NCBI GenBank assembly: GCA_018457135.1
Contig: JAGGDU010000046.1
Span: 201,516 to 265,515, forward strand
Source: Trichodesmium erythraeum GBRTRLIN201
Lineage (GTDB): Bacteria; Cyanobacteriota; Cyanobacteriia; Cyanobacteriales; Microcoleaceae
Direction: 5' to 3'
DNA: 64,000 bases
Shown piece after piece: positions 37,310 to 40,238 of the stretch. The position numbers were made by a program, and so were the translations under genes. Numbering within the stretch: position 1 is the first letter of the stretch; the number at the start of each line of letters is the position of its first letter. A model generated the notes under the pieces. The model saw nothing but the letters and a program-made list of their open reading frames with translations. It did no database searches and was not told where the DNA came from.

Positions 37310-40184
37310 ATGCAAGTCTCACAAAATTGCCTAGATTTAATCAAAAAATGGGAAGGATTTTCTCTGAATGCTTATATAGATCCAGTAGGAATAGCAACTA
37401 TTGGGTATGGAAGCATTCGTTATCCCAATGGAGAAAAAGTTCGTCTAGGAGATAGAATTTCAGAAAGAGATGCAGAAGGATATCTGGGTTTTGAATGTAA
37501 GAAAATAGCACTAGAAATTTCTAAATTAATCAAAGTTCCTGTTAATCAAAACCAATTTGATGCTCTAGTATCTTTTTCTTATGTGCGACTCGTTGGCTAG
37601 TAAAAACTGCTTAAAAGCAGCTATAGCAAGCCTTCCAGGTTTTTAAATGAAGTGAGTAACTTCAACCTGTGAAAACTCTTATGTCCTTAGTGGTGAAATT
37701 CCACCGCCTTGTTGTTGGGTAGAAAGCATAGGCCACGGAGTAGAGACTGAACATCAATCTCCGAAGCTGGCTTAAATGCGGGAAGATAATAGTTGCCAAC
37801 GAAAATACCGCTAGCAGAGACTGACAAGTGGACGAATAGGAAGGTAATAAAACTCTCGTAAAAGATGGCCATTCCGAAGGTAGCTATGGAATGTAGGACG
37901 AAAGTTAGAGGGTTAATGGGTATAGATATATAAGAGTCTATATCAACAACCAATACGCACCCTCCGGGAGATTTTACCCCACTAAATCAGTTGTAATAAA
38001 GGCATAAGGGAACGAGAAAACCTCCCCAAGACACCTAAGAATATGGGTCGAGAACTTAGGAAGCCATTCAAGGTTAATCTACGCACTTAGTCGTAGGTCT
38101 TAGGGAGAGTAGGATTGGGTAAAAAGCATATCTATGCAGACGTACCCACTGTTAGACGTAATGTGAGGTAACAACTAGCAATGAATAAAGCTAAAACACT
38201 AAAAAGACATAATGGTAATCCTAATCTCTTTTTAAGTGTGGCATGGGATACAGACGATACACTGTCCCAAATTAGTATTAATCCTAATTTCAGCTGGAGA
38301 GATATTGATGGGAAACGGGCCCAGAAGAATGTATCTAAGTTGCAAAAGTTAATTTACATAGCATCCAGCCGTGGCAAAATCCCCAAGATGCGTAAATAGC
38401 AAAAACTTCTGACCAAAAGTTATTACTCCTTGTCCCTAGCTTTTAGGCCCGTGATACAGGTAGACCCGGGGAAGAAAACTGCTGGTATGAACTGAATTAA
38501 AAAGCTTCCTCCAATGCAGAGATTTAACTTGGTTGATTCGATTAGCAGAATTAGTAAATATTCTGGTGTAAGGAAAGAAGTTACGATGCTGTTAAATTGG
38601 CAAAAGAATAAATGCGCATCTTATGGATTAACTTTTAGACCAACTGACCTAATTGAATTGGACTATTTAATGCTTATTAATGTTTAGGTCTAAAGGTGGT
38701 GACAATATATAGAGGAATAAACAGTTGTTGCACCGACATTGTCACGATACTAAAACTGCTTTAGACAAGAAAACATATTTAAAAACAAGGCTACAGGAAT
38801 TACTTGATGATTATCTGTGGGTTGACAATATGTTGGCGCTAAGGTGGGGATGTACCTTTTAATTGGGGCGTTTAAGAGAGGAGCCGTGTGAGGTGAAAGT
38901 CTCACGCACGGTTTTGAAGACCAGCAGACACTATAAAGAGTGATCGGAAATGGGTTTGCTGAGTTTAACAATGTAGGAACTGGCGCATTTCAAAGTAGTA
39001 CCTTATTAAAAAAACTAAATCAAGGAGATTATCAAGGAGCAGCTAATGAATTTTCTCGTTGGGTAAATGGGGTGGTTAATGGTGTCAAGCAATCACTACC
39101 TGGTTTAGTATCTCGTCGTGCTGATGAAAAGAGGTTATTTCTTAAAGCTGGAGGAGAGAAAAAACCTTTAGAAGATGAAATTTCCAAACAAGATAAAGTA
39201 ACTTGGTTAGAAGGATATCGTGATGAAAATAAGAAAACTGTAGTTGTAGCTTGGAATGGGGGTAAAGTAGAAGAAATTTTAACTCTAGAAAAGTTTAATA
39301 AAGAGTTATTGGCTAATGTTTTTCCTCAGTATAAAAATGCTAGGTATTATGTCACTGCTCCTGGTAATAAACGAATTCCTCCTGGTGAAAGAATTTCAGT
39401 TTTTGAAATTTCGGATATATATAATTCTGATAAACTTCCAAAACTCAATCGTGTACTAGTGCGAGGGAGTGAAGGTAGTGATGTGAAAATTTTACAAGAG
39501 AGATTGAAGGATTTAGGTTATTATCTAGGAGAACTTGATGCTATTTTTGGTAGGCAAACTGAGCTTGCAGTTATTGATTTTAAAAAAGATTATTTTGGAA
39601 TCACAACAGATAATGCAACAGTAGAGTCCATAACTTGGAAAAAATTATGGGGAGATCCTCTACCTAAACCTCCCGTCTTACCACCCACGTCAAAGAAAAA
39701 TTATCTACTATTAACAAAGACAAGTCGTAAAGATAGATATGGATGTTATGTACTTCACTTAGACTATTTTAAAAGTGGCAAGCTAGAGGACAGGTTAGAA
39801 GTTTGTTGCGGTGCCCCTGGAAGGCAATTTTTCCGTACCGCTGCTCGGAGTCGGGCAATGACTGGAGAACCATTACCAGAGGGAAAGTGGTACATTAATG
39901 ATATTATTTGGGCTGATGGTCAAGATAATTATTATGGTCAAATTTTTCAAAGTGGTATTGGCCCTGTAACAGTTCCCTTAGACTATATAGAACCTGGCAC
40001 AACTGAAAGAAGCGCGATTGAAATTCATATTGACTGGAATCGAAATTATGGTTCTCCTGGTACTGTTGGTTGTATAGCTACTTACAACATAGCTGATTAT
40101 AAAAGGTTTATTACTTGGTTAAGGGATACAGATCCACGGGATCTTTATGTTGACTGGAAATTAGGGACTTCTCCTAAACCTTAG
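37310..40184 (+). CDS. Intron-split lysozyme / peptidoglycan-binding / L,D-transpeptidase-like protein
   Basis: Two exons (37310-37582 and 38970-40184) give a 495-residue protein when the group II intron is removed. Exon 1 ends 'DALVSFSY' and exon 2 resumes 'NVGTGAFQSSTLLKKL', restoring the T4-type (GH24) lysozyme fold at the codon boundary. The catalytic block 'KWEGFSLNAYIDPVGIATIG' (~14-33) contains the Glu, Asp and Thr of the family. The lysozyme part ends near residue 140. A peptidoglycan-binding domain follows ('LVRGSEGSDVKILQERLKDL', ~260-320), then a C-terminal domain with 'AIEIHIDW' and 'GSPGTVGCIATYN', resembling the His/Cys active site of YkuD-type L,D-transpeptidases. No signal peptide is visible. 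It could be phage-derived or a cell-wall remodelling enzyme. Unspliced, it stops soon after exon 1. Confidence 0.88.
38181..38872 (+). pseudogene. Decayed group II intron maturase (LtrA-like), RT core deleted
   Basis: The frame opens MNKAKTLKRHNGNPN and contains 'WRDIDGKRAQKNVSKLQKLI', the typical N-terminal RT0 region of intron-encoded proteins. After TAG (38398) the same kind of sequence goes on as 'LLTKSYYSLSLAF' and 'DPGKKTAGMN', again with a stop. It then jumps to the C-terminal HNH part: 'NKCASYGLTF', 'DLIELDYL', and 'LLHRHCHDTKTALDKKT'. The reverse-transcriptase domains 1-7 and the maturase X domain are missing, and several stops are present. About 0.69 kb remains of an expected ~1.7 kb gene. 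The protein is certainly inactive. Confidence 0.88.
38881..38914 (+). ncRNA. Group II intron domain V
   Basis: The 34-base hairpin has stem strands GAGCCGTGTGAG and CTCACGCACGGTT around GTGAAAGT, with the GAAA tetraloop and the conserved catalytic pattern of domain V. It is the ribozyme's active-site element and appears intact. Confidence 0.92.
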
Positions 40185-40194
40185 TTAAGATTAT

Positions 40195-40221
40195 GGTGCG
40201 TTACGCTTGGCGCTTCGCACC
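40195..40221. terminator. Hairpin between convergent genes
   Basis: GGTGCG (40195-40200) pairs perfectly with CGCACC (40216-40221) around an inner TTACGCTTGGCGCTT. It lies between the stop of the lysozyme gene (40184) and the stop of the convergent SPFH gene (40239). A role as a bidirectional terminator is likely by position; it also resembles a dispersed cyanobacterial palindrome. Confidence 0.5.
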
Positions 40222-40238
40222 TCGCTTTTGAGTTGATA

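Follow-up and report, generated by a model that had tools for sequence, protein, structure and literature searches.

Coding sequence for a lysozyme-type enzyme in Trichodesmium erythraeum GBRTRLIN201 stops and resumes 1,387 bp further on, which raises the questions of what this interval is, whether the cell can still make the enzyme, and what would remove the interval from the transcript. We analyzed computationally the window (the whole stretch of 64,000 nucleotides in which the gene lies), the genome that holds it (7.2 Mb in 241 contigs), and related genomes. The interval is a group II intron that splits the lysozyme gene at a codon boundary. With high confidence, we regard it as a splicing-competent, no longer mobile intron in a chromosomal T. 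erythraeum gene, spliced with a maturase that likely comes from a sister intron.

A group II intron at a codon boundary of a lysozyme gene

The gene, a neighbor of pdxJ, lies on the + strand, as do the intron and its parts described below, with exon 1 at 37310-37582 (residues 1 to 91) and exon 2 at 38970-40184 (residues 92 to 495 and the stop codon). Exon 1 ends in ...GTATCTTTTTCTTAT at 37582, and the interval opens with GTGCGACTCG at 37583 and closes with ...TTTAAC at 38969, after which coding picks up at AAT GTA GGA (38970), in phase 0. Joined in frame after residue 91, the two exons encode a 495-aa GH24 lysozyme that matched the Phage_lysozyme profile over its full length (PF00959, positions 1 to 125 of 125; E = 3.8e-43) and carries a PG_binding_1 domain in the part encoded by exon 2. 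Taken separately, exon 1 covered positions 1 to 76 of the profile and exon 2 positions 77 to 125. The junction expected after splicing is TCTTAT^AATGTAGG, and the coding capacity of the unspliced RNA is limited to a truncated product of 96 aa.

Orthologues in Trichodesmium MAG_R03 and MAG_R04, Okeania SIO3I5, SIO2B3, and SIO2C9, Microcoleaceae MO_207.B10, Microseira, and others run unbroken through residue 91/92, and the intron is absent from the orthologues of most close relatives. A search of the same genome gave no intronless second copy of the lysozyme gene. The sequence-only reading had proposed that a group II intron splits this gene at 37583-38969, and with the join in frame and the intronless relatives unbroken, these coordinates proved exact. 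Automated annotation is liable to split or mis-call the enzyme.

Both group II ends are present, GUGYG at the 5′ side (GTGCGAC at 37583) and AY at the 3′ side (TTTAAC, to 38969). The Rfam models RF00029 and RF04357 both scored over their gathering thresholds: domain V (38878-38918) reached 58.6 bits with RF04357 (gathering score, 53) within an RF00029 match of 56.1 bits, which covers domains V and VI (38878-38969) and stops exactly at the predicted 3′ splice site. Domain VI (38919-38969) contains a bulged A at 38962, the eighth base from the intron 3′ end, which is invariant in 19 related introns and, by its sequence, a candidate branch point. Alignment of the 5′ 600 nt of 22 related introns, taken from the window's genome, Trichodesmium MAG_R02, and Okeania SIO1I7, gave domains I, II, and III with 144 consensus pairs, 51 of them with two-sided changes. 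The guaB intron (C203) and the C60 intron, whose 3′ ends are approximate, were used solely for this 5′ domain alignment and for the pairing analysis below. In the window, the consensus helices place domain I at 37589-38016 (columns 7 to 459 of alignment A1), domain II at 38022-38107 (columns 465 to 557), and domain III at 38110-38154 (columns 560 to 607). These results bear out what had been read from the letters, namely, the GTGCGAC start, the AAC end, a domain V, and a branch-point A.

Within domain I, EBS1 (ATAAGAG, 37930-37936, at intron position 348) sits in the loop capping a covarying hairpin (37919-37944) and pairs with IBS1 (TTCTTAT, 37576-37582), the final 7 nt of exon 1, through six Watson-Crick pairs and one G-U pair. 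The stem of this hairpin is the most variable helix, where a single pair may show as many as 12 two-sided changes. In a set of 20 intron copies, the pairing of EBS1 with the copy's own 5′ exon had a mean score of 6.1 of 7, compared with 2.7 for shuffled pairings and a maximum of 4.05 in 20,000 shuffles; because the family score lies far above all shuffles, a chance match is excluded. In the copies tested, at most 2 of the 7 EBS1 positions were left unpaired with the copy's own exon. For the Okeania SIO1I7 intron at this site, the exon sequence is CTGTTAT and EBS1 is ATAACAG, a matched change relative to the TTCTTAT and ATAAGAG of the window. A candidate EBS2 (AAGATA, near intron position 199) failed to hold across the intron family, and no EBS2 is assigned with confidence.

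A decayed reading frame and the likely source of a maturase

Domain IV (38181-38877) holds a decayed IEP, in which the N-terminal residues 1 to ~119 are fused to an HNH remnant (from ~residue 508 on). About 388 codons (approximately residues 120 to 507), comprising the RT core and the maturase domain, are deleted, and the remnant has stops and a frameshift. It still matches RVT_N and aligns with an intact 635-aa IEP in two stretches, one of 72 aa (61% identity) and one of 42 aa (67%). Domain IV holds no intact RT/maturase frame of the kind that marks mobile, IEP-bearing introns, and the intron's own maturase gene is dead. Intact IEPs with RVT_1, GIIM, and HNH are found elsewhere in the genome, one of 635 aa in an intron borne by guaB and one of 589 aa in an intron of RIR.

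Over 40 other stretches of the same genome are 66 to 84% identical in DNA to the lysozyme intron, and the genome has 24 group II matches over the Rfam cut-off; T. erythraeum IMS101 has likewise been reported to have 24 group II introns (PMC8919778). Introns of the same family, with exons that join in frame, are found in dnaN (four introns), ruvA, tsaD, thyX, RIR, and an allophycocyanin-type gene. Since the family interrupts dnaN, ruvA, and tsaD in frame, its splicing must be within the reach of the cell. RIR and thyX each contain an intein in addition to a group II intron.

Because the lysozyme intron's own RT/maturase gene has suffered deletion and stops, its splicing most likely relies on a maturase acting in trans from an intact sister intron, and trans-assisted splicing is, by inference, the likeliest mechanism. 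The lysozyme transcript would fold into domains I to VI, with EBS1 of domain I holding the final 7 nt of exon 1 and the bulged A of domain VI attacking the 5′ splice site. Exon 1 would then be ligated to exon 2 to give the mRNA for the 495-aa enzyme, with the maturase most likely coming from an intact sister intron, for instance the copy in guaB or RIR. Splicing in vivo, the lariat pathway, and the identity of the helping maturase are what we infer from these sequences. In 2005, Meng et al. reportedly found that T. erythraeum splices its RIR and dnaN introns with the protein of a sister intron. The lysozyme intron shares with these two its sequence family, the loss of its ORF, and the likely need for a maturase in trans, but it differs from them in its host gene and in having kept part of an IEP, in which an internal deletion can be identified. 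Self-splicing in vivo without any maturase, with which the complete and conserved ribozyme core would be compatible, is unlikely, given that heterologous work in E. coli with ORF-less T. erythraeum introns points to trans-encoded splicing factors (PMC4649490) and that intact sister IEPs are present in the genome.

The lysozyme intron belongs to a well-known class of this species. As summarized in later papers, 17 group II introns in 11 genes of T. erythraeum are spliced in vivo (Pfreundt et al. 2014, via PMC4649490 and PMC5776111), with ten of the 17 being ORF-less according to one of these summaries (PMC4649490). Those introns also lie inside protein genes, and the lysozyme copy may already be among them; a literature search for an intron in a Trichodesmium lysozyme gene, the scope of which lay outside the published in vivo list (Pfreundt 2014, 10.1038/srep06187), returned nothing relevant. 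The Tery_4732 twintron (PMC4649490) is likewise a group II intron in a T. erythraeum protein gene, whereas the lysozyme intron is single, with neither a nested second intron nor an intact IEP. The window's genome encodes the Tery_4732 protein with full identity across the 80 residues preceding the twintron site; the single mismatch in the reported 99% is taken to be residue 81, whose codon the published intron splits. By this match and the count of 24, the host is T. erythraeum or extremely close to it. Domain V of the lysozyme intron matches the family of the plastid ndhA and ndhB introns (RF04357) over its gathering score, and these introns likewise lack an ORF and lie inside a gene. Unlike them, the lysozyme intron resides in a bacterial chromosome and has a recognizable IEP remnant in domain IV.

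Repeated introns in lysozyme genes of Trichodesmium and Okeania

Three introns interrupt the MAG_R02 orthologue: the first follows coding base 37, the second residue 91, and the third lies nine codons beyond the second. Once they are taken out, a continuous 495-aa frame remains. In the orthologue of Okeania SIO1I7, there are at least three, of which one ends before ~residue 36, one is at residue 91/92, and one is at residue 356. The SIO1I7 intron at 91/92 is probably not an orthologue of the window's intron, since it stands apart in the tree from the other two introns at this site, and forcing the three together gave an AU p value of 0.031. This intron was probably acquired independently, the site having been hit twice. 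As natural replicates, these multi-intron versions of the gene allow a direct test of how introns are gained, lost, and re-inserted at one site. A single further GH24 gene was detected in the window's genome (G000:C134:14278-21748), and it has three introns of the same family. Its exons join in frame to encode a product of at least 466 aa, in which the GH24 domain is accompanied by a C39-type peptidase domain.

Such repeated hits may reflect a target preference or mere tolerance. A broader proposal would hold that, in Trichodesmium and Okeania, introns of this family have repeatedly landed in lysozyme genes, since the orthologous gene has at least five distinct intron positions, with two hits at the same nucleotide for one of these, and the second GH24 gene has three introns, and that splicing efficiency tunes the output of the wall-lytic enzyme; we consider this combination quite unlikely.

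The sequence-only reading had further held that production of the enzyme depends on splicing and that splicing could serve as a control step. The dependence stands, in that the unspliced RNA yields only the truncated protein; the control step is unsupported, with the same family also residing in dnaN, ruvA, tsaD, and the allophycocyanin gene. A regulatory switch, in which splicing occurs and its efficiency sets the production of the wall enzyme, could draw on this truncation, on the introns that both detected GH24 genes carry, and on the response to iron or dust of some T. erythraeum intron-host genes, a response in transcript level and not in splicing (PMC5776111). However, the presence of the same family in housekeeping genes argues against such a switch, and any such control is not conserved, since the intron is missing in most close relatives, so that we judge it very improbable.

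The orthologous intron of MAG_R02 and selection on the exons

The intron after residue 91 in MAG_R02 is orthologous to that of the window, occupying the identical site with tree support of 100/100. Positions 1 to 600, the ribozyme part, are 94% identical between the two, whereas the decayed ORF (positions 701 to 900 and 1001 to 1200) is 84% identical and has indels (Fisher p = 7e-7 for the contrast between ribozyme and ORF). The IEP deletion in MAG_R02 overlaps that of the window and is 54 nt shorter. Between the two genes, the exons have a dN/dS of 0.24 at a synonymous difference of 23.5%, which indicates, both genes being intron bearing, that the protein was under selection while the intron resided in the gene. 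With the ribozyme conserved, the ORF decaying, and the exons under purifying selection, splicing has probably persisted. The gene tree did not settle whether the window's species and MAG_R02 are sisters, and either gain or loss of the intron is therefore possible in MAG_R03, MAG_R04, and SIO3I5.

These comparisons leave as the least probable alternative that the intron is inactive and the lysozyme gene a broken pseudogene whose good exon fit comes merely from a recent insertion: the dead IEP would suit this, as would the intronless orthologue of Okeania hirsuta, in which an internal deletion has removed about residues 139 to 396, making the gene dispensable in some relatives, but the insertion is not recent, to judge from the orthologous intron and the synonymous divergence since the genes split, the exons and the ribozyme are conserved while the ORF remnant decays, and the splice-site and branch-point bases are intact. 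An intron still spliced with the maturase of a sister intron would make this locus a clear example of a group II intron that is immobile and has no helper of its own, yet stays functional within a protein gene of a bacterium, and whose orthologue combines a conserved ribozyme and a decaying frame. Such a state is the intermediate that has been postulated to link mobile introns of bacteria with organellar or spliceosomal introns.

The host protein has a C-terminal domain (window 39700-40184) that resembles an L,D-transpeptidase (YkuD), with a HIDWNRNYGSPGTVGCI motif and a score slightly under the Pfam cut-off. The same sub-cut-off match was obtained with exon 2 on its own, and a fusion of a lysozyme with a transpeptidase-like domain is possible from the sequence. 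Promoter-like sites were fewer than the shuffled expectation, and terminator-like sites were in slight excess over it. Directly 3′ of the lysozyme gene (window 40194-40228) lies the palindrome-like TGGTGCGTTACGCTTGGCGCTTCGCACC, which resembles a short dispersed hairpin repeat.
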